The position numbers were made by a program, and so were the translations under genes. 48,248 bases of DNA from Bacillota bacterium (GTDB taxonomy: Bacteria; Bacillota; Sulfobacillia; JAJYWN01), in assembly GCA_021791495.1 (NCBI GenBank), contig JAJYWN010000058.1, positions 1 through 48,248 on the forward strand, read 5' to 3'. Below the pieces are notes generated by a model. That model was given only the letters and a program-made list of their open reading frames with translations. It searched no databases and had not been told where the DNA came from. Within the stretch, counting starts at the first letter, position 1; the number at the start of each line of letters is the position of its first letter. Positions 2,645 through 48,248 of the stretch are shown here, in pieces.

Positions 2645-2695
2645 CGGCGGAATCCCCTCGACCTTTGCCCGGCCGGCATCCCGACCTGACAGTCG

Positions 2696-2725
2696 CCCCC
2701 CGTTTCCGGGGGGTTTTCTCTTTTT
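2696..2725 (+). terminator. Rho-independent terminator after the HD-GYP gene
   Basis: CCCCCC (2696-2701), a 6-base loop and GGGGGG (2708-2713) are followed by a T-rich tract TTTTCTCTTTTT. It ends the transcription unit of the HD-GYP gene and separates it from the aldolase operon. From here to 2928 I see no gene or convincing promoter. Confidence 0.85.
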
Positions 2726-2928
2726 CCCGTCGGAGAGTGAAACATATGACGGCGGATGTCGCGAACGGAAGGAAAGGGACACCGGGACCGAGAAAGCAGA
2801 GAAAGCCGTTTTCCCCACTTGAATGAAGATTTCACCATAAGAAACTCGCCCTTAGAAAGTCGACAGAGGGATATCCGGAAAGACCGCCCGGATCGAACGA
2901 CAGTTACAAGGGATAAGGAGTGTTCTCA

Positions 2929-3807
2929 TTGATCAAGGGTATCTTCGCCCCCATCCCCACACCCTTCCAGAACGACGAGATCGCCCTGGACAAGCTCGGG
3001 GAGAACTTGGATAGGTGGTCGCAGACAGATTTGACCGGACTGGTCGTTCTGGGCTCTAACGGCGAGTTCGTGCTCTTGACCGAGGACGAGAAGGTCAAGC
3101 TGGTGGAATACGTGCGGCGCCACTTCCCGGCGAACCGTCCTGTCATCGCCGGGACCGGGTGCGAGTCCACCCGTGATACCATTCGCCTTACGAAGCGGGT
3201 GGCGGACGCCGGGGCCACGGCCGCCTTGGTTGTCACGCCGAACTATTACAAAGGGAGCATGACCGAAGCGACCCTCAAGCGATTCTTCTACGATGTGGCC
3301 GACGCTTCGCCCATTCCGGTAATGCTCTACAATATGCCCAGGAACACCGGCGTCAACATATCGGCCTCGCTGGCCATCGAATGCTCCAAGCACCCGAACA
3401 TTGTGGGCTTGAAAGATAGCGGCGGGAACATCGTCCAGATCGCCGAGATCATCTCTGGCACCGGGCCCGATTTCGCCGTGTTCGCCGGTTCGGGGAGCTT
3501 CCTCTACGCCACCGCCGCCCTGGGTGGGGTAGGCGGCACCCTGGCCGTGGCCAACATTCTGCCGAACATGTGCGCCGCCATCCAGCGGGCCGCCGAGGCG
3601 GGCGACCATGCGAAAGCCAAGGAGCTTCAAATGAAGATCATGGCCGCCAATGCCGCGGTCACCAACCGGTGGGCCATCCCCGGACTGAAGGCCGCCATGG
3701 ACCTGATCGGGTATTACGGCGGATCGCCGCGCCGGCCTCTCTTGCCGCTGGCCGAGCCGGCCTTCGGTGAGCTGAAAAAGATTCTGGCGGAAGTCGGGGC
3801 GATCTGA
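2929..3807 (+). CDS. DapA/NAL-family aldolase, probable 4-hydroxy-2-oxoglutarate aldolase (HOGA1-like)
   Basis: This is a class I aldolase of the dihydrodipicolinate synthase / N-acetylneuraminate lyase superfamily, 292 residues. The Schiff-base Lys is K162 in VGLKDSGGN, and the catalytic Tyr is Y134 in VMLYNMPRNTG. The substrate-pocket motif is GSNGEF rather than the GTTGE of DapA. Blocks GCEST, VVTPNYYKG, HPNIVGLKDSGG, NAAVT.R..IPGLK and GYYGG..R.PL match, as I recall them, the human mitochondrial enzyme HOGA1, which splits 4-hydroxy-2-oxoglutarate into pyruvate and glyoxylate. The next two genes encode a regulator and an alanine-glyoxylate aminotransferase, which supports this choice over lysine biosynthesis. 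The start is TTG 2929, eight bases after AAGGAG; a GTG at 2920 overlaps that site. Other 2-keto acid aldolase activities remain possible. Confidence 0.82.
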   Translation: MIKGIFAPIPTPFQNDEIALDKLGENLDRWSQTDLTGLVVLGSNGEFVLLTEDEKVKLVEYVRRHFPANRPVIAGTGCESTRDTIRLTKRVADAGATAALVVTPNYYKGSMTEATLKRFFYDVADASPIPVMLYNMPRNTGVNISASLAIECSKHPNIVGLKDSGGNIVQIAEIISGTGPDFAVFAGSGSFLYATAALGGVGGTLAVANILPNMCAAIQRAAEAGDHAKAKELQMKIMAANAAVTNRWAIPGLKAAMDLIGYYGGSPRRPLLPLAEPAFGELKKILAEVGAI

Positions 3808-3809
3808 CT

Positions 3810-4589
3810 GTGCCGGCTACCATCGTGCGATCGGTGGACAAGGCCCTGTCCATCTTGGAGTACATGGCCTCCAGGGACGGAAGTGCTGGGCTGACCGAAA
3901 TCGGCCAGGTGTTGGAGCTGAACGCCAGCACGGCGCACCACCTGCTCAGCACGCTCCGGCAGCGCGGCTTCGTGGAGCAGGACCCTTCGACCCACCGCTA
4001 TCACCTGTCCCTGAAATGCCTGGAGGTGGGCCAGGCGGCCAGGTCCCACTTGGACCTGCGCGCCCTAGCCACGCCTCACCTGCATTCCCTGACCGCGCAG
4101 ACCCGGGAGAACTCGAACCTTGCTGTTCTGGACGGGCACGAAGTTGTCTACTTGGCTCAGGCCGAATCCGGACGCATGATGCGCATGTTCACGCGGCCTG
4201 GAGCCCGGGCGCCCCTCCATGCAACGGGGGTGGGCAAGTGCCTATTGGCCTGGTTGGATGAGAAGGAAAAGGTGTCCATCGTCGACGAGTTGCCCTTGAC
4301 ACGCTATACCGGGAAGACCATCTGCCAGAAAGACCGGTTCCTGGCACACCTGGACGAAGTGAAACAGCGCGGCTATGCTCTGGATGACGAGGAAAGGGAA
4401 GAAGGCGTCGTCTGCATCGCCGCACCTGTGCATGATTATTCTGGACGGGTCGTGGCCGCCATCAGCATCTCCGGGCCGGCCGGCCGGACTAGGGGCGGAA
4501 ATCACCGCGCTCTTGTGTCAATGGTAAGAACGGCCGCGTTAGGGCTTTCCGGCGGGTTGGGCTGGAAGCCGGACGAGCCTGCGGTCTAG
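3810..4589 (+). CDS. IclR-family transcriptional regulator
   Basis: The 259-residue protein has an N-terminal winged helix-turn-helix (residues 5-65; SVDKALSILEYMA, then LTEIGQVLELNASTAHHLLS) and the C-terminal IclR effector-binding domain (about 75-250; PLHATGVGKCLLAWL, RGYALDDEEREEGVVCIAAP, ISISGPAGR). Members typically bind small organic acids such as glyoxylate or pyruvate and control neighbouring catabolic genes. It starts with GTG two bases after the aldolase stop and lies 25 bp before the aminotransferase gene, so it is very probably co-transcribed and controls this small operon. The founding member, E. coli IclR, responds to glyoxylate, which fits the neighbours, but the ligand here is inferred. 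Confidence 0.9.
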   Translation: MPATIVRSVDKALSILEYMASRDGSAGLTEIGQVLELNASTAHHLLSTLRQRGFVEQDPSTHRYHLSLKCLEVGQAARSHLDLRALATPHLHSLTAQTRENSNLAVLDGHEVVYLAQAESGRMMRMFTRPGARAPLHATGVGKCLLAWLDEKEKVSIVDELPLTRYTGKTICQKDRFLAHLDEVKQRGYALDDEEREEGVVCIAAPVHDYSGRVVAAISISGPAGRTRGGNHRALVSMVRTAALGLSGGLGWKPDEPAV

Positions 4590-4614
4590 AAACGACATAA
4601 AGGAGAAGAAACCC

Positions 4615-5799
4615 ATGCCAGAACTGATCCCCGAACGCAAGCCCACGAACCGGCTGCTCCTGGGCCCCGGCCCGAGCACCACTGACCCGCGTATCCTGCG
4701 CGCTCTGTCCGAACCCACCGTGGGGCACCTGGATCCCGAGTTCCTGCGAATCATGAACGAGACCATGGCGATGCTCCGCTACGTTTTTGAGACGGAGAAC
4801 AAACTGACCATGGCCATGTCCGGCACCGGCAGCGCCGCTCAGGAGACTCCTTTCCTGAACCTCCTCGAACCCGGCGACAAGGCCATCGTCTGCGTCCACG
4901 GCTACTTCGGTGAACGCATGGTGGACATGGCCGGGCGCGCCGGCGCCGATGTCACTGTGGTGGAGAAGCCCATGGGCCAGGCCATCGACCCAGAGCAGGT
5001 GGCCGACGCTTTCAAGAAGGCCAACGGCAAGGTCAAACTCCTTTCCATCGTGCACGCGGAGACGTCGACCGGCGTCCTGCAACCCCTTGATGACATCGTT
5101 AAGATCACCCATGACAACGGCGCCCTCATCGTGGTGGACACCGTCACTTCCCTTGGCGGCGTGTCGGTGGGGACCGATCGCAACCACTACTACTTCGTGT
5201 ACAGCGGGACGCAGAAGGCGCTGTCCTGCCCGCCGGGCCTGGGGCCCATCACGGTGAACGAGGCGGCCGTGAAAGCCATCCAGGAGCGGAAGACCAAGGT
5301 GCACAGCTGGTATCTGGACCTCAGCATGATCATGCGGTATTGGGGCCAGGAGAGGTTCTACCATCACACGGCGCCGGTCAACATGGTCTACGCGCTGCAT
5401 GAAGCGCTCCGCATTATCCAGGAGGAGGGTCTAGAGGCCCGTTTTGCCCGTCACCGCCTGAACCGCGACGCCCTCATCGCCGGGTTGCAGGCCATGGGCT
5501 TGAAGCTAGTGGTGGACGACGGTTACCGCCTCCCGACCCTGACCACGGTCTACGTGCCAGAAGGGATCGCCGACGCCGCGGTACGCGGTGCGCTGCTAAA
5601 CGACTATAATATCGAGATTGGCGGCGGTCTGGGCGCTCTAAAGGGCAAGATCTGGCGCATCGGGCTCATGGGTTACTCGAGCACGAAACGGAATGTGCTG
5701 ACGCTCCTGACCGTCTTGGAGACGATTCTCGGCGGCATGGGTTACAAGATGCCCCAGGGGGCCGGCACGGCGGCGGCCACGGCGGTCTACACAAAATAA
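4615..5799 (+). CDS. Alanine-glyoxylate / serine-pyruvate aminotransferase family (class V, PLP)
   Basis: This 394-residue fold-type I PLP enzyme carries the class V hallmarks: LLLGPGPS at 14-21, SGTGSAAQE at 69-77 (phosphate loop), HAETSTGVLQPLD at 147-159, the Asp of VVDTVTSLGG at 175, and the Schiff-base Lys K201 in SGTQKALSCPPGLG. YHHTAPVNMVYALHEAL and the C-terminal RIGLMGYSS also match AGXT-type enzymes. Such enzymes convert glyoxylate to glycine using alanine or serine. ATG 4615 follows AAGGAG with normal spacing. It is the third gene of the aldolase-IclR-aminotransferase unit. The amino donor cannot be fixed from sequence, and phosphonate or 2-aminoethyl substrates used by relatives are less likely given the context. 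Confidence 0.9.
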   Translation: MPELIPERKPTNRLLLGPGPSTTDPRILRALSEPTVGHLDPEFLRIMNETMAMLRYVFETENKLTMAMSGTGSAAQETPFLNLLEPGDKAIVCVHGYFGERMVDMAGRAGADVTVVEKPMGQAIDPEQVADAFKKANGKVKLLSIVHAETSTGVLQPLDDIVKITHDNGALIVVDTVTSLGGVSVGTDRNHYYFVYSGTQKALSCPPGLGPITVNEAAVKAIQERKTKVHSWYLDLSMIMRYWGQERFYHHTAPVNMVYALHEALRIIQEEGLEARFARHRLNRDALIAGLQAMGLKLVVDDGYRLPTLTTVYVPEGIADAAVRGALLNDYNIEIGGGLGALKGKIWRIGLMGYSSTKRNVLTLLTVLETILGGMGYKMPQGAGTAAATAVYTK

Positions 5800-5828: not shown

Positions 5829-5883
5829 GGCGTCACCGGACCTGGCGGGGTTTTCTAGGCTCTGTGCTGGATAACTTAGGACC

Positions 5884-9724: not shown

Positions 9725-10510
9725 GTGCGCTGGGTCCGTTTTGCCGCACATGAACATGAAGATGAAGTAGCCGCGTACGGGAAGCTGGACGGGGATACCG
9801 TCCATGAGTTGACAGATGCTCCCTGGGATGGGGGAACTCCCACTGGGAAGGAGTACCCGCTGTCGGGAGTGCGCCTCTTGGCCCCCGTGGTCCCTTCGAA
9901 GATCGTCTGCTTGGGCCTGAACTACGCCGAGCACGCCGCTGAGGGCGGCCACGGCTCCGCGCCGGGCACGCCGCTCATTTTTCTGAAACCGCCCACGTCC
10001 GTGATCGGGCCGGAGGACACCATCATCTGGCCGCCGATGTCCGAAAGGATCGGGTACGAGGCGGAGCTGACCATCGTCATCGGACGGAAGGCCAAGGACG
10101 TGCCGGAAGCGGCCGCCGGCGATTTCATTTTCGGCTGGACCTGCGCCCACGATGTCAGCGCCCGTGACATCCAGAAGAGTGACGGCCAGTGGGTCAGGGC
10201 GAAGAGCTTCGATACCTTCTGCCCGGTCGGCCCCTGGATCGAGGACTCGATTCGCGTGGCGGATGTCAAGGCCGGCCTAGCTATCCGCGGCTATCTGAAC
10301 GGCGAGAAGAAGCAGGACGGCAACACCGCGGACCTGGTCCATCAGGTTGACAAGCTCGTTTCGTTCATCTCGCAGGTCATGACCCTCCTGCCTGGAGACA
10401 TCATCCTGACCGGCACGCCGTCAGGAGTCGGCCTGATGCAGACCGGCGATGTGTATGAGGTCGAAATCGAACGCATCGGAAAGCTCAGGAATACCTTTAT
10501 CAAGGCCTAG
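9725..10510 (+). CDS. Fumarylacetoacetate hydrolase (FAH) family protein
   Basis: The 261-residue protein matches the FAH fold: KIVCLGLNYAEHAAE (residues 59-73), PLIFLKPPTSVIGPED, then YEAELTIVIGRK with the paired metal-binding glutamates, HDVSARDIQ with the metal-binding Asp, WVRAKSFDTFCPVGPW, and the C-terminal ILTGTPSGVG. The family cleaves or isomerises 2-oxo/1,3-dicarbonyl acids (acylpyruvases, oxaloacetate decarboxylases, 2-hydroxyhepta-2,4-dienedioate isomerases). The exact substrate cannot be told. The start is GTG 9725, ten bases after AAAGGAG. It stands alone between the GT4/membrane pair and speD. A link with the keto-acid aldolase at 2929 is possible but unproven. Confidence 0.88.
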   Translation: MRWVRFAAHEHEDEVAAYGKLDGDTVHELTDAPWDGGTPTGKEYPLSGVRLLAPVVPSKIVCLGLNYAEHAAEGGHGSAPGTPLIFLKPPTSVIGPEDTIIWPPMSERIGYEAELTIVIGRKAKDVPEAAAGDFIFGWTCAHDVSARDIQKSDGQWVRAKSFDTFCPVGPWIEDSIRVADVKAGLAIRGYLNGEKKQDGNTADLVHQVDKLVSFISQVMTLLPGDIILTGTPSGVGLMQTGDVYEVEIERIGKLRNTFIKA

Positions 10511-30932: not shown

Positions 30933-31074
30933 CCCCGAACAACGAACTTTGCCCCCGATTCTGGTCTGTGATAGCCTCGCGCCAAGTCCGCCTCCGTCCC
31001 TTGGCAGAAGGTACGTTTTCCCTTCCCAGCGAAGCTTGTCAGGCAGCAGACCTCACCGGAAGGGAACGAGAAGC

Positions 31075-32679
31075 ATGCCCACCGTTGGACAAGTCATCGC
31101 CGACCGCTTAGCCACAGCCGGAGTGCGCCGAGTCTACGGGTACCCGGGCGGCGAAGTCCTGGACCTGATCGAAGCCCTGCGTCAGCGCGGGTTGGAGTTC
31201 ATCTTGACCAGGCACGAATCGGCCGCCGCCTTCATGGCGGGCGGGGAAGGGGAGATGACCGGCGTTCCCGGCGTTTGCCTTGCCACCCTCGGCCCCGGCG
31301 CCACGAACCTGGTGAGTGGGGTGGCTGACGCGTATCTCGACCGTCAGCCCCTTCTGGCCATCACCGGCCAGCTGCCGGCGGACCGGTACGAGATCAGCCC
31401 GCACCAGCGGATCGACCTTGGGTCGCTCTTCCGTCCCATCACCAAGCTCTCGGCTCGCCTCACACCCGGCAACGCCGCGAACCTGATGGACAAGGCCCTG
31501 GCCACGGCGGTGGCGGAGCGGCCCGGCCCAGTCCACCTGGAACTCCCCAGTGACGTAACGACGAAAGAGGCGGCGGAGCGGCCCCAGGGGGGCCCATTCG
31601 GCCTGCCGCAACCGATGGAAGGGCCCGCCCACCCCCTGGCCCTCGACCACGCCACCGAACTGCTGAAGCTCTTCCCGAAGGCCGTGGCTCTGGCCGGTCC
31701 CGGCGTCATCCGGGCCGACGCCGCCGGGCCCTTTTGGAACTTCGCCCGCGCCTGGGGCCTTCCCGTGGTGGTCGGCCCGAAGGCCAAGGGTGTCTTCGAC
31801 GAAGACCACCCCCTTTTCACCGGGGTCATTGAGGCCCTGGGCACCAAGGTCCTCTTCGACTTTATCCATAGCGCCGAGATGCTGGTCACCGTGGGGTTCG
31901 ACCCGGTCGAGTTGGACAAGGCCTGGCTCTACGACGGCCCCGTCCTGCACATCGACCGGGCCTCGAACATCGACGAATACTGGCACGCGGCGGCCGAAGT
32001 GGTGGGCCGGCTGGGAGACACCTTGGATACTTTGGCCTGGCGGGCGCCCAAGCCGACCCCGGAATGGGGCGAGGAGGCGGCGACCAAGGTGCGCGAGGCG
32101 CTGCGGTCGGCCATCGACGGGGCGCCGGTCTGGTCGGCGGAGGGTGTGCGGGTCCGCGAGCTTTTCGAAAAGGTGCGCCGGGTCATGCCCCTTGAAACCG
32201 TGGTCACCTGCGACGTCGGGGCCCACAAGTTCGCCGCCGGCCAGCTCTGGCTGACGATGCGCCCCGGCACCTTCTACATGTCGAACGGCCAATCGTCCAT
32301 GGGTTACGGTCTGCCGACGGCCATGGCCGCCTCCTTCGTCTACCCCGAACGCCCGGTGGTGGCTTTCATTGGCGACGGCGGGCTGGGGATGTATCTGGGC
32401 GAACTGGAGACCATCGCGCGCTACGGGCTAAAGCTGGGTATCGTGGTGCTGATGGATGAGAAGCTGAGCCTCATTCGCATCGGCCAGGAACGGCGGGGCT
32501 ATCCCGAATACGGCGTCGGATTCGCGAATCCGGACTTGACCCACCTGGGCAAGGCTTTCGGTATTAAGACGGTGATGGCGAAAACCGCGGCCCGAGTCGC
32601 TTCCGCCCTCAAAGGGCTACCGGCGGACGGGCCGGTTTTGGTAGGCGTCCCAGTGGACCCCGGAAGTTACAGGGTCTAG
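31075..32679 (+). CDS. Thiamine-diphosphate-dependent enzyme, acetolactate synthase-like large subunit
   Basis: The 534-residue protein has the three TPP-enzyme domains: N-terminal pyrimidine-binding (YGYPGGEVLDLIEAL; catalytic Glu in TRHESAAAFMAGG about residue 46; LATLGPGATNLVSGVADAYLDR), a central nucleotide-fold domain, and C-terminal pyrophosphate-binding (IGDGGLGMYLGELETIARYG near 429). After the GDG motif the usual Asn-Asn is replaced by MDEK, so metal binding is slightly unusual. Reaction: decarboxylation of a 2-keto acid or acetolactate formation. No small regulatory subunit or other ilv gene is near, so true acetolactate synthase is not assured. ATG 31075 follows GGAAGGGA; the frame extends upstream without family similarity. 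Confidence 0.85.
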   Translation: MPTVGQVIADRLATAGVRRVYGYPGGEVLDLIEALRQRGLEFILTRHESAAAFMAGGEGEMTGVPGVCLATLGPGATNLVSGVADAYLDRQPLLAITGQLPADRYEISPHQRIDLGSLFRPITKLSARLTPGNAANLMDKALATAVAERPGPVHLELPSDVTTKEAAERPQGGPFGLPQPMEGPAHPLALDHATELLKLFPKAVALAGPGVIRADAAGPFWNFARAWGLPVVVGPKAKGVFDEDHPLFTGVIEALGTKVLFDFIHSAEMLVTVGFDPVELDKAWLYDGPVLHIDRASNIDEYWHAAAEVVGRLGDTLDTLAWRAPKPTPEWGEEAATKVREALRSAIDGAPVWSAEGVRVRELFEKVRRVMPLETVVTCDVGAHKFAAGQLWLTMRPGTFYMSNGQSSMGYGLPTAMAASFVYPERPVVAFIGDGGLGMYLGELETIARYGLKLGIVVLMDEKLSLIRIGQERRGYPEYGVGFANPDLTHLGKAFGIKTVMAKTAARVASALKGLPADGPVLVGVPVDPGSYRV

Positions 32680-34328: not shown

Positions 34329-34357
34329 AGCGGATCAAGAGCTTAGGAGGTGTGGGA

Positions 34358-35596
34358 TTGCCGTCGTTGGCCGTCACACCGTTCGCTGTGGAACGTTGGT
34401 TCGGGAAGTACGAGTTCACGACTGAGATCAACATTGCTGAGAGCTGCGTCCAGCCCATGACGCCGGACGAACTGCTGGAGTTGGCCGGGCTGGGGGAGGC
34501 AGAGCGCCGCGAACTCTTGGGCCGCGTGAGGTTGGGCTATACAGATAGTTTGGGGCTGCCGGAACTTCGCGAAGAAGTGGCGGCCCTGTACCCCGGCACT
34601 CCAGCGGACCAGGTCCTCATCACCGGCGGTGCCATCGAAGCTAACTACCTGTTGGCCAGGGCCTTGACCGTCCCCGGCGAGGAGTTTGTGTGCCTGCACC
34701 CGGTGTACCAGCAGCTTTACCAGGTCGCGGCCGACCTGGGGGCTCGCCCGGTTTTCTGGCGGCTACGCTGGGAGGACGGCTTCCGACCCGACCTTGATGA
34801 ATTGGAGCGATTGCTGGAGGCGCATCCCGGCGCCCGTCGCCTGGTCATCAACTTCCCGCACAACCCTACAGGGGCGGTCCTGAGCCCGGACGAGATGAAG
34901 CGGCTGGCCGACATCGTGGTGCGGCACGGCGTCGGCGGTGGCGGCCTTTTGGTGCACGCCGATGAGGTCTACCGCGGGCTGAACCTTGATCCGGCGGCGG
35001 CGCCGTCTCCCACGATCCGCCAGTTCCTTCCGGACGCCGTGGTCACGGGCAGCCTTTCGAAAGCTTACGGCCTGCCCGGCTTGCGCATCGGTTGGATCGT
35101 GGGGCCGCGCCCGGTCATCCAGAAATGCTGGGAGCTGCGAGACTACACTTCGATCAGCGTTTCGGCCCTGGGTGAAACCCTGGCCTGGCAGGCCCTGGCC
35201 CACCGCGAGGCGGTCCTGGCGCGGAACAGAGCCATCGCCCGGCGTAACCTGGCCGTCCTCAGCGCCTTCGTCGAGGAGAACAGCGTCTTCCTTGAATGGG
35301 TGCCGCCGAAAGAAGGAGTGGTAGCGTTCCCCCGGCTGTTGCCGGCGGCCCTTGGCCTTGGGCGCGGCCCCGCCGCTCCCGGCGCCGGCGGTGACCCCAG
35401 TGACCGGAGCGTCAGGACGTCCCGTTTCCGCGACTCCGAAGATATCTGTCGCGTCCTGGCCGAAGAACACGGCGTGCTGCTCCTCCCCGGCACCTGCTTC
35501 GACGAGCCACTCCACTTCCGCCTGGGCTTTGGCTACGAGACCGACCGCCTTCAGACCGGACTGGCGAGGCTGGGGGCCTTCTTCCGCGGCCTCTGA
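34358..35596 (+). CDS. Class I/II PLP-dependent aminotransferase
   Basis: The 412-residue fold-type I enzyme has VLITGGAIEANYLLARAL near 86, NFPHNPTGAVLS (the Asn and PTG motif, about 168-179), HADEVYRGL near 204 (PLP-nitrogen Asp) and the Schiff-base Lys in TGSLSKAYGLPGLRIGW near 236; an Arg near the C-terminus (HFRLGFGYE) binds the carboxylate. It resembles the PatB/valine-pyruvate type transaminases more than AspC; the substrate is unknown. A low-complexity insert (LGLGRGPAAPGAGGDPSD) lies near 333-350. The start is TTG 34358, seven bases after AGGAGG. Its last 46 bases overlap the end of the convergent MFS gene. Confidence 0.87.
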   Translation: MPSLAVTPFAVERWFGKYEFTTEINIAESCVQPMTPDELLELAGLGEAERRELLGRVRLGYTDSLGLPELREEVAALYPGTPADQVLITGGAIEANYLLARALTVPGEEFVCLHPVYQQLYQVAADLGARPVFWRLRWEDGFRPDLDELERLLEAHPGARRLVINFPHNPTGAVLSPDEMKRLADIVVRHGVGGGGLLVHADEVYRGLNLDPAAAPSPTIRQFLPDAVVTGSLSKAYGLPGLRIGWIVGPRPVIQKCWELRDYTSISVSALGETLAWQALAHREAVLARNRAIARRNLAVLSAFVEENSVFLEWVPPKEGVVAFPRLLPAALGLGRGPAAPGAGGDPSDRSVRTSRFRDSEDICRVLAEEHGVLLLPGTCFDEPLHFRLGFGYETDRLQTGLARLGAFFRGL

Positions 35597-45220: not shown

Positions 45221-45350
45221 ATATGTGGCAAGATGAGGTGCTGGCCGTCGTTCAGTAAAGCGCAGGAAGAGAAAGGCACGGCACGGAAGTATCTCGGCTA
45301 GCGCAACCACTGAAACCATGACTGAGCGCACCACCGAAAGGGGTGTCACC

Positions 45351-46895
45351 GTGCCGAAACCCATCATTACGAAGCTGCGCGAAATCGTTGGGATCAACAA
45401 CGTCTTGGATGAAGAAGAGGAACTGGCGTGCTATACCTATGACGCCACGCCCGCCCTGCCGCTGTCCAAGCCCGACGCCGTGGTCCGCATCACGCGGAAA
45501 GACCAGGTCCCGGAAGTCGTCCGGGCCTGCTACGAAGAGGGCGTCCCGATCACCCCGCGAGGATCCGGCACCAACCTTTCGGGCGGCACGGTTCCGGTGA
45601 ACGGCGGCGTAGTTCTTTTGATGACCGGAATCCGCGATATCATCGAACTCGATAAAGAGAACCTCCTGGCGAAAGTACAGCCCGGCCTGGTCACGGCCCA
45701 TTTCCACCAGGCCGTGGAGGCCGAGGGACTGTTCTACCCGCCCGACCCCGCTACCATGACCATCTCCACCCTCGGCGGGAATGTGGGGGAGTGCAGCGGC
45801 GGCCTGCGCGGCTTGAAATACGGGGTGACCAAGGACTACGTCATGGGCCTGGAAGTCGTCCTCCCCAACGGCGACGTGGTGAACACCGGCGGCAAGACGG
45901 TGAAGAACGTCACCGGCTACGACCTGACCAAGCTGTTCACCGGGTCCGAGGGGACGCTGGGCGTTTTCACCGAGATCACCTTGAAACTGATCCCCCTCCC
46001 GCCCTACAAGCATGCCGTGCTGGCCGTCTACGACGACCTGAACGCCGCCGCCCACGCGGTCTCCGCCATCATCGCGGCGCGCGTCCTCCCCGCAACCCTT
46101 GAAATCATGGATAACACCACCATCAAGGCGGTGGAGGCTTTCTCCGCCGCCGGTCTGCCCACCGACGCCGGGGCCGTCCTCCTCATCGAACTGGACGGGG
46201 TGCGGGAGGCGGTGGAGAACGACGCCCGCATCGTGGAGAAAGTCTGCCGGGACGAAGGCGCACGCAGTGTGCAGGCGGCTTCCTCAGCGGCCGAGCGCGA
46301 CCGGCTCTGGGCCGCGCGGCGCACGGCCCTGTCGGCCCTGGCGCGCGTGAAGCCTTACGTCTTCCTGGAGGACGCCACTGTACCGCGCAGCAAGGTGGCC
46401 GACATGGTGCGGGCCGTCGAGGAGATCGCCACCCGCTATGACGTGCTCATCGGGACCTTCGGGCACGCCGGCGACGGTAACCTTCACCCTACGCTCATCA
46501 CCGACCGCCGGAACGCCGACGAGCAGCGGCGGGCCGACCTGGCGATCGGCGAGATATTCTCGGCGGCCCTGAATCTGGGTGGGACCCTTTCGGGCGAGCA
46601 CGGCATCGGCCTGGCCAAAGCCCGCTATCTGCCATGGGAGGCGAAGGCCGAAGGCATGGAACTGATGAGGCGCATCAAGGGCGCCATCGACCCCAAGGGC
46701 CTGATGAACCCCGGCAAGATGTTCGTCTACCGCCCGCACGACACGGCCGCCGCCGGTGTCTCGGCGGCTGGAGTCGGCGCGGCGGCAGGGGCAGGGGCAG
46801 GGGCGGCCGCGGCCAAGGGCGGCAAGGCCCGGAACCAGGGCCGAGCTTCGGGCAGTTGGTTGAACCCGCCTGGCAGCTCCGGCGAACAGGATTAG
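45351..46895 (+). CDS. glcD: Glycolate/D-lactate oxidase FAD subunit
   Basis: The 514-residue protein has the FAD-binding PCMH domain (ITPRGSGTNLSGGTVPVNGG about 65-84; TISTLGGNVGECSGGLRGLKYGVT split around 137-158) and the C-terminal FAD-linked oxidase domain (GTFGHAGDGNLHPTLI near 373 and GEHGIGLAKARYLPW near 416), as in GlcD and D-lactate dehydrogenases of the VAO family. It oxidises glycolate or another 2-hydroxyacid to the 2-oxo acid, passing electrons to GlcF. An Ala/Gly-rich tail of about 45 residues (GVGAAAGAGAGAAAAKGGK) after the normal end is unusual and contains GGGGCA repeats. Start: GTG 45351 behind AAAGGGGTG; ATG 45318 has no good site. glcF follows with a 16-bp gap. Confidence 0.92.
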   Translation: MPKPIITKLREIVGINNVLDEEEELACYTYDATPALPLSKPDAVVRITRKDQVPEVVRACYEEGVPITPRGSGTNLSGGTVPVNGGVVLLMTGIRDIIELDKENLLAKVQPGLVTAHFHQAVEAEGLFYPPDPATMTISTLGGNVGECSGGLRGLKYGVTKDYVMGLEVVLPNGDVVNTGGKTVKNVTGYDLTKLFTGSEGTLGVFTEITLKLIPLPPYKHAVLAVYDDLNAAAHAVSAIIAARVLPATLEIMDNTTIKAVEAFSAAGLPTDAGAVLLIELDGVREAVENDARIVEKVCRDEGARSVQAASSAAERDRLWAARRTALSALARVKPYVFLEDATVPRSKVADMVRAVEEIATRYDVLIGTFGHAGDGNLHPTLITDRRNADEQRRADLAIGEIFSAALNLGGTLSGEHGIGLAKARYLPWEAKAEGMELMRRIKGAIDPKGLMNPGKMFVYRPHDTAAAGVSAAGVGAAAGAGAGAAAAKGGKARNQGRASGSWLNPPGSSGEQD

Positions 46896-46911
46896 GAAGG
46901 GCCAGACCGCC

Positions 46912-48248
46912 ATGAGCGAGAGGAACTCCGCAAAGAACCCGAAGAACGGTGGGACCGATAGGGTCACCGACACCAGCGTTAACCCGACGGCCGTGCGGCT
47001 GGCAGAAGAAGCGCAGAAGTGCATGAAATGCGGCCTCTGTCAGGCCGTCTGCCCTGTCTACCGTGAAGTGCGCGGGGAGAGTTCGGTGGCCCGTGGCCGC
47101 ATCAGCCTGGTGGAGGCCGCCCTGAGCGGCCGCGTCCGCTGGAGCATGTTGATGGAGGACCGCTTGTCCACCTGCCTTGTGTGCCAAGCCTGCCTGGCCG
47201 GTTGCCCCTCCGGTGTGCGCATCGACCGGCTTATGGTCGACGCCCGCGCCATCCTGGCCGAAAACGTGCGCACCCCGTTAGTCAAGCGTCTGGCCCTGCG
47301 CAAGCTCCTCCGGGAGGGCCGTTTGGACGGTTATGTAAAGTTGGGGCGCCGGTTTCAGCGGTTGGCGCTACGGTCCCGCGGGCATGGGCTGAATGCCCCG
47401 GCCTTCGGCCTGGACCGTAGCCGGCTCTTGCCCTCTCTGTCCAGGCAGACTTTGTTCGAAGACCGGTCGATCTCGCGGCTCCCCGACGGAACACCTGTTC
47501 TGGCCAATCCCGCGGCCGGTACCGCCCCGCGCGGCGATTTGACCTTCTTCCCCGGATGTCTCATAACTTATGTCTACCCTCAGATCGGCTTGGCGGCTGG
47601 GCGGGTGCTGGGGGCCTTGGGTTACCGGGTCCTGTTGCCCCGTGAACCGGTTTGCTGCGGTGAGCCGGCGCTCTTGAATGGGGACAAGGAGACCGCCCAG
47701 ACCCTGGCCGCGCGCTTGAAGGCGAACTTGCCCCAAGGAACGGCGACGCTGATCACGGCCTGCGCTTCCTGCGGGACCATGCTGAAGAAGGAGTATCCGG
47801 AACTGGAAATGCCGGACACCGGTACCGCCGACCTTGGCGTCCCGGTAGTGGACATAACTGAACTGCTGGCGTCCGACGGGAACCTTGACCGTCTGGAGGC
47901 CCTGGGGGCTTTCCGGGGGAACGGCGGAGGCACCGCGGCAGCCGCGGCCAAGGTAACCTACCACGACCCTTGCCATCTCAAACATTCGCGCGGCGTCACC
48001 GCGCCGCCCCGCCAGCTCCTGCGGCGCATGGCCGGCGACTCCTTTGTGGAGATGAAGGAATCGGCCTGCTGCGGATCGGGCGGCACCTTCAGCCTGCGCC
48101 ACTACGCCCTGACGCGGAAGATCGGACGGCGCCAGGCCCAACTCATCACCGACACCGGCGCCGGCACCGTGGCTACGGCTTGCCCCGGCTGCATTATGCA
48201 AACTAACGAGAACCTGGCCCACGCCGGGAAGGATGCGCGGGCCAGGCA
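46912..48248 (+). CDS. glcF: Glycolate/D-lactate oxidase iron-sulfur subunit (partial, runs past the window end)
   Basis: The frame opens with ATG 46912, behind AGGAAGGG that overlaps the glcD stop, and is still open after 445 codons at the window edge. Residues 37-47 (CMKCGLCQAVC) and 88-98 (CLVCQACLAGC) are two CxxCxxCxxxC sites for [4Fe-4S] clusters. Two later CCG-domain motifs are visible, VCCGEPALLNGD near 245 and SACCGSGGTFSLRHY near 385, as in GlcF and heterodisulfide-reductase-type subunits. It carries electrons from the FAD subunit to the quinone pool. Two Gly/Asn/Ala-rich low-complexity stretches (about residues 5-20 and 335-348) are unusual. glcE is absent here, as in many Bacillota. 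Confidence 0.9.
   Translation, partial: MSERNSAKNPKNGGTDRVTDTSVNPTAVRLAEEAQKCMKCGLCQAVCPVYREVRGESSVARGRISLVEAALSGRVRWSMLMEDRLSTCLVCQACLAGCPSGVRIDRLMVDARAILAENVRTPLVKRLALRKLLREGRLDGYVKLGRRFQRLALRSRGHGLNAPAFGLDRSRLLPSLSRQTLFEDRSISRLPDGTPVLANPAAGTAPRGDLTFFPGCLITYVYPQIGLAAGRVLGALGYRVLLPREPVCCGEPALLNGDKETAQTLAARLKANLPQGTATLITACASCGTMLKKEYPELEMPDTGTADLGVPVVDITELLASDGNLDRLEALGAFRGNGGGTAAAAAKVTYHDPCHLKHSRGVTAPPRQLLRRMAGDSFVEMKESACCGSGGTFSLRHYALTRKIGRRQAQLITDTGAGTVATACPGCIMQTNENLAHAGKDARAR

Follow-up and report, generated by a model that had tools for sequence, protein, structure and literature searches.

Deficiency of HOGA1, the human 4-hydroxy-2-oxoglutarate (HOG) aldolase, leads to primary hyperoxaluria type 3. 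The HOG aldolase usually cited for bacteria is the unrelated Eda-type enzyme, and Escherichia coli Eda, an aldolase for 2-keto-3-deoxy-6-phosphogluconate (KDPG) and 2-keto-4-hydroxyglutarate, would catalyse the same cleavage; bacterial proteins of HOGA1 type are often labelled in databases as dihydrodipicolinate synthase (DHDPS) family. Eda belongs to a trimeric KDPG-type family and not to the DHDPS type, according to the comparison made in PMC3188589. Other systems that invite comparison are the beta-hydroxyaspartate cycle (BhcABCD with BhcR), which likewise has a glyoxylate aminotransferase with an IclR-family regulator, and the glyoxylate regulators AllR, IclR and BhcR themselves. The locus described here lies on contig JAJYWN010000058.1 of a Bacillota bacterium (Sulfobacillia; assembly GCA_021791495.1), the 48,248 nucleotides of which are called the window below. 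Three consecutive genes on it, separated by gaps of 2 and 25 bp, encode a HOGA1-type aldolase, an IclR-family regulator and an aminotransferase of the alanine:glyoxylate (AGT) type. The open-licence literature that was searched yielded no description of an operon that combines a bacterial HOGA1-type enzyme with an AGT.

An initial annotation had presented these genes as the bacterial counterpart of the human glyoxylate route. The module of HOGA1-type aldolase, AGT and IclR regulator stands at the level of sequence; the equivalence to the hydroxyproline route does not, as proline dehydrogenase was not found in the genome. The gene order and spacing then given are confirmed by open reading frame (ORF) calls, and the motif blocks then named as shared with human HOGA1 and AGXT do occur and line up in real alignments, with phmmer matches far beyond chance. 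We consider it probable that the genes form a regulated module that would cleave HOG, or a compound close to it, into pyruvate and glyoxylate and convert the latter to glycine.

Identity of the aldolase

The aldolase carries a Pfam DHDPS domain and exceeds the cut-off of no NCBIfam model, the best being dapA with 178.8 bits against a cut-off of 206.15. Among the sequences of solved structures, human HOGA1 was the best match (257 bits, phmmer E = 2e-75) and a DapA was next with 144 bits. When the AlphaFold model of the protein (pLDDT 97) was compared with known folds by Foldseek, HOGA1 took ranks 1 and 2 (rmsd 1.2, 45% identity), the next match having 30% identity. In a tree of 82 rows, from which identical rows and those shorter than 270 aa had been dropped, a group of 59 rows (support 99/98) holds both HOGA1 and the window aldolase, and a clade of 40 rows (100/98) contains the latter; E. 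coli DapA, YagE and NanA and a paralogue from the same genome all lie outside the group shared with HOGA1. The exact placement of HOGA1 inside the 59-row group is an open fork, with one eukaryotic sequence in the tree. The test proposed beforehand, whether the enzyme groups with DapA or 2-keto-3-deoxygluconate (KDG) aldolases, was thus run, and the enzyme was not placed with either.

The active site gave the same picture. At nine HOGA1 columns (S77, N78, E80, Y140, Y168, N173, K196, S198 and G222) the window aldolase reads SNEYYNKSG, identical to HOGA1, and this pattern occurs in 33 of the 82 rows, HOGA1 and the window enzyme counted. At the same columns E. coli DapA and the paralogue from the same genome read TTEYYRKAG. 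As described for the human enzyme in PMC3188589, Lys196 and Tyr168 are catalytic and Ser77 takes part in the proton relay; Asn78 was modelled on the 5-carboxyl of HOG and Ser198 on its 4-hydroxyl, and Asn173 sits where DapA has Arg138, the residue that binds aspartate semialdehyde. The window aldolase has the Schiff-base lysine and all five other residues, including asparagine in place of Arg138; the DapA features (Arg138, Thr44/Thr45 and a dapA score over the cut-off) are absent. It is therefore HOGA1-like in every sequence test run, as the initial annotation had claimed, by score, fold match, tree and active-site columns alike. Beyond the fold and these residues, it shares the GSNGEF and KDSGG blocks with human HOGA1 (PDB 3s5o), from which it differs in being bacterial, in sharing an operon with genes for an AGT and an IclR regulator, and in belonging to a genome without a detected proline dehydrogenase to feed it. 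Identity as an N-acetylneuraminate lyase (NanA) was ruled out by residues, cut-offs and tree.

More distant HOGA-like aldolases, with 41-51% identity, were seen at seven of the surveyed loci (L080, L081, L082, L084, L085, L087 and L088). Their neighbours, as judged by eye, are housekeeping genes (dxs, tlyA, NAD kinase, recN and others, not all at each locus), and the residue in the column of HOGA1 Asn173 is variable among them.

Aminotransferase and regulator

The aminotransferase matched Nostoc AGT best (402 bits, E = 2e-119), followed by PucG (301), UGXT (292) and human AGT (280-286, E = 2e-82). The curated NCBIfam models all scored well under their cut-offs. With Nostoc AGT (1vjo) and human AGXT it shares membership of the class V family, the lysine block (SG(S/T)QKAL or SCSQKGL), YHHT-PV/PI and RIGL/RVGL; it differs from both in that its gene sits in one operon with an aldolase gene. 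The block around the histidines reads YHHTAPV, in agreement with the YHHT-PV/PI of AGT enzymes and not with the NHHTEAT of PucG and UGXT (3isl, 3nnk). The YHHT-PV, pyridoxal-phosphate lysine and RIGL blocks, all present here, and NHHTEAT are presumably active-site elements. The AGT type is thus favoured, a ureidoglycine:glyoxylate aminotransferase (PucG/UGXT) is disfavoured, and the enzyme is a probable converter of glyoxylate to glycine. The assignment to the AGT type made earlier agrees with both the best matches and the block alignment.

The regulator has the HTH_IclR and IclR_C domains of Pfam. Its best NCBIfam model is BhcR (239 bits; cut-off 350), and every curated cut-off was missed. 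Among solved relatives, the putative regulator 2ia2 (120 bits) and the IclR protein 1mkm (118) were best, and the effector domain of the allantoin and glyoxylate regulator AllR was fourth (110). Of the residues that hold the glyoxylate or pyruvate oxygens, as listed in Table 1 of PMC11323563, the regulator keeps Gly160, Asp212, Ser239 and Ser241, and has Val rather than Ala at position 161; its hydrophobic patch (positions 143, 146, 154 and 220) reads M, M, A, V. The predicted IclR regulator was therefore upheld, and domains, BhcR model and kept residues offer modest evidence for a glyoxylate/pyruvate-type pocket. Compared with AllR, IclR and BhcR, which it resembles in these respects, it falls under all curated cut-offs, has Val161, and neighbours another set of genes. 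The beta-hydroxyaspartate cycle differs in a similar way: the partner here is a HOGA1-type aldolase, and the NCBIfam BhcA model gave 202 bits against a cut-off of 650.

Aldolase neighbourhoods and the proposed route

The linkage of aldolase and aminotransferase genes was followed in related genomes at two levels. Among 61 genomes, the window's own included, an aldolase of at least 54% identity was present in 24, here called HOGA-like genomes, and an AGT orthologue of at least 48% identity in 33, 3 of these being partial. Of the 24, 14 had both genes; these were adjacent in 11 of the 14, with or without an IclR gene between them. Phylum-wide, the aldolase was detected in 43 of 398 genomes with E values of 1e-75 or lower. 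Pooling of neighbourhoods, with repeats (L032, L034, L035, L036, L038, L041, L048 and L051) and a truncated locus (L056) excluded by hand, left 90 loci, of which the 78 at 47% identity or above were counted and the 12 below were excluded; genome G095 contributes two of the 78. Neighbouring genes were called by in-house scripts, by which some may have been overlooked or mis-started. A class V aminotransferase lies in the same gene run as the aldolase at 28 of the 78 loci, which bears out the recurrence of the linkage, and an IclR gene at 3.

These 28 aminotransferases are of more than one kind. Sixteen are of the window's AGT type, and 12 are divergent, with 28-34% identity to it. In a pairwise comparison of eight of the 12, seven proved 57-81% alike, and that of L043, only 35-39% like the rest, may represent a third lineage. 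For the three divergent proteins scanned (L150, on the same contig as L038, L140 and L163), BhcA was the best NCBIfam model, far under its cut-off, and the best solved-structure matches of the L163 protein were serine/alanine pyruvate-glyoxylate enzymes. On a tree of the 78 loci the aminotransferase-linked state needs 13 changes, at least 7 of them forced by well-supported branches, so that the linkage was gained or lost repeatedly. The strongest evidence that the two enzymes are functionally tied is that a single clade of aldolases has two or more lineages of aminotransferase as neighbours. At L169-L171 a class III aminotransferase encoded close to the aldolase was considered as an analogue of AGXT2 and not counted; the solved structures most related to it are those of a broad amino-acid racemase, of another class III aminotransferase and of dialkylglycine decarboxylase, and among the NCBIfam matches listed all were under cut-off.

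In the route that we favour, the equivalent of HOGA1 Lys196 would form a Schiff base with HOG or a very close analogue, and this C5 keto acid would be cleaved to pyruvate and glyoxylate. Glyoxylate, which is toxic, would be turned into glycine by the aminotransferase, for instance with alanine or serine as the amino donor. The glycine may then pass to a glycine cleavage system; two adjacent PF02347 glycine-dehydrogenase matches (458 and 47 bits) suggest that the genome encodes such a system at another place. The role of the IclR protein may be to sense glyoxylate, pyruvate or both and to adjust the expression of its own operon. Substrate, direction and effector are inferred.

The source of HOG is probably not hydroxyproline oxidation. 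No match to proline dehydrogenase (PF01619) was found in the window's own genome (G000, 97% complete) at E 1e-10, with 8 of 14 control genomes positive. The same family was not found in 21 of the 24 HOGA-like genomes, the window's own included, and was found in 3; it was found in 25 of 37 non-HOGA-like genomes, counts that are uncorrected for kinship. Proline racemase (PF05544) had no match in the window's genome, and 1-pyrroline-5-carboxylate dehydrogenase, for which a single model was tried, had one weak match (247.6 bits, cut-off 659.65). The genome therefore seems to lack the upstream steps of the mammalian pathway, and the reading of the operon as the full human hydroxyproline route is not supported. 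The Eda-type aldolase model TIGR01182 likewise had no match in this genome at E 0.001, with 8 of 14 controls positive, which leaves the window aldolase as the genome's best candidate for a HOG aldolase and agrees with the earlier statement that it differs from the KDPG-aldolase type of bacteria. The glyoxylate shunt was also rejected as a source, and so was allantoin in this genome. The PF00463 match, over the Pfam cut-off with 48 bits, covers 87 of 526 positions and is probably another member of the superfamily, and two amidohydrolase matches were both under the allantoinase cut-off. Three GlcD-like proteins, one inside the window, could supply glyoxylate from glycolate; their scores of 480-537 bits all fall short of the glcD cut-off, 568.

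Several observations weigh against the favoured route. No gene forming HOG was identified. At 50 of the 78 loci there is no class V aminotransferase in the run, although 12 of these runs reach the end of the available stretch, and loci with a linked aminotransferase are more clustered on the tree than in shuffles, so that related loci inflate the counts. Nineteen of the 33 AGT-bearing genomes have no aldolase at 54% identity or above, which means that the AGT has other roles; a link to serA was not noticed when two genes on each side were looked at by eye in 18 AGT neighbourhoods away from the aldolase. E. coli KdgR, the control for the regulator pocket, also has Asp212, Ser239 and Ser241, three of the four kept residues, so that only position 160 discriminates. 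Lastly, the neighbours of the aldolase differ widely among relatives, and several substrates may be possible.

It is conceivable, if rather unlikely, that the window aldolase acts on some other 2-keto-3-deoxy or 4-hydroxy-2-keto acid, as HOGA-type enzymes accept related keto acids. One such substrate would be 4-hydroxy-2-oxobutanoate, which yields pyruvate and formaldehyde and is linked to homoserine by an aminotransferase; in three loci, L044 (8907-9941), L066 and L070, the gene directly downstream of the aldolase is homoserine-dehydrogenase-like, as is one near the aldolase in L073, and in L044 aspartate and homoserine dehydrogenase-like genes were both recognised by hidden Markov model (HMM). 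Another would be a sugar-acid product of an IlvD-type dehydratase. In L062 (5667-8691) the aldolase is directly followed by such a dehydratase (673 bits) and a LarA-like group 22 nickel-pincer isomerase, which together might supply a 2-keto-3-deoxy acid, but the dehydratase passes the ilvD cut-off of 618 and may be an ordinary biosynthetic enzyme. None of these partner genes is found in the window operon, and the window aldolase keeps Asn78 and Ser198, the residues modelled in PMC3188589 on the carboxyl and hydroxyl groups of HOG.

The gene set also fits the opposite order of reactions, in which the aminotransferase would act upstream, from 4-hydroxyglutamate to HOG, or the aldolase would act as a synthase on glyoxylate and pyruvate, the module making or using 4-hydroxyglutamate. 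Synergistota loci that pair the aldolase with ureide-type genes, possibly yielding glyoxylate, could be read in this way: a hydantoinase/carbamoylase-type amidase lies beside it in L037, by HMM, and in L042 and L045, by cluster. We regard this order as improbable. Condensation by HOGA is 1,000-10,000-fold slower by the rates reported in PMC3188589, and the window aminotransferase and one member of the divergent set match best alanine-, serine- or aspartate-glyoxylate/pyruvate enzymes. That the aldolase is a mis-assigned DapA of the lysine pathway, as the shared superfamily and the top rank of the dapA model might suggest, is very improbable at sequence level, given the score below cut-off, the position outside the DapA group, the replacement of Arg138 by Asn, Thr44/Thr45 by Ser/Asn and Ala163 by Ser relative to the DapA residues compared in PMC3188589, and the other paralogue of the genome with DapA residues at all nine columns.

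The remaining neighbours in relatives include an allantoinase just over its cut-off with a sulfolactate/AllD-type dehydrogenase under cut-off (L065, and L033 by cluster) and TRAP-type transporter genes, recognised by eye only, in L037, L042 and L078. Together the neighbours suggest acid catabolism, possibly of more than one substrate. A wider and more speculative reading, which we hold possible though doubtful, is that in anaerobic Bacillota and Synergistota the HOGA1-type aldolase is a catabolic hub for a HOG pool formed by routes other than hydroxyproline oxidation, such as dehydration of C5 sugar diacids or formation from ureides, and that different lineages of glyoxylate aminotransferase were recruited to the same operon against glyoxylate; this would be an undescribed bacterial HOG pathway. 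If the favoured route from HOG to glycine is true, the operon would offer a simple test system for the HOGA1 reaction, would point to a microbial source of HOG yet to be found, and would give a function to proteins now often carrying the DHDPS-family label.

Labelled by eye, an iron-type alcohol dehydrogenase gene lies beside the aldolase in L057, L060, L061 and L144, and an aldehyde:ferredoxin oxidoreductase-like gene is also near it in L057, L060 and L144.

Operon layout and other genes of the window

The coordinates of the operon and its predicted signals are collected in Table 1. An in-frame GTG at 2920 is an alternative start for the aldolase. Between 2600 and 6000 there were 6 terminator-like matches, against a shuffle mean of 2.3, and 3 of the 6 are the hairpin upstream of the aldolase. 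With this good hairpin on one side and a weaker one on the other, the three genes look like a free-standing operon; the gene that precedes them encodes an HD-domain protein, and the one that follows encodes a glycosyltransferase. A promoter scan found 1 site, on the opposite strand, where 0.5 were expected.

Table 1. Features of the aldolase operon in the window (feature, coordinates, strand, start codon and basis)
HOGA1-type aldolase, DHDPS superfamily, 292 aa	2929..3807	+	TTG start; ORF call, profile, structure, tree
IclR-family regulator, 259 aa, putative glyoxylate/pyruvate-type effector pocket	3810..4589	+	GTG start; profile and residue alignment
Class V alanine/serine:glyoxylate-type aminotransferase, 394 aa	4615..5799	+	ATG start; profile and alignment
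Putative Shine-Dalgarno sequence of the aldolase, AAGGAG	2915..2920	+	read off the sequence; 8 nt upstream of the TTG at 2929
Intrinsic-terminator-like hairpin and T run, likely to bound the operon on its upstream side	2695..2714	+	8-pair stem, T-rich tail
Weak terminator-like hairpin 3' of the aminotransferase	5831..5847	+	consensus match only

Elsewhere in the window, a GlcD-like protein, which scores 537 bits with TIGR00387 (cut-off 568), is followed by an LdhH/GlcF-like iron-sulfur protein, under all cut-offs, at 45318-48246; the two, some 40 kb away from the operon, may be a pair that makes up a glycolate or lactate dehydrogenase. An acetolactate-synthase-like thiamine-diphosphate enzyme (30949-32679) was under cut-off, as were all the models nearest to an aminotransferase at 34352-35596 (PRK07324, capreomycidine synthase and guanitoxin GntC). 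Downstream of the operon on the same strand, 9725-10510 encodes a fumarylacetoacetate-hydrolase family protein with an Rv2993c-like N-terminus, the cluster of which also occurs near the aldolase in L068, on the opposite strand, and, by the first clustering only, in L039.

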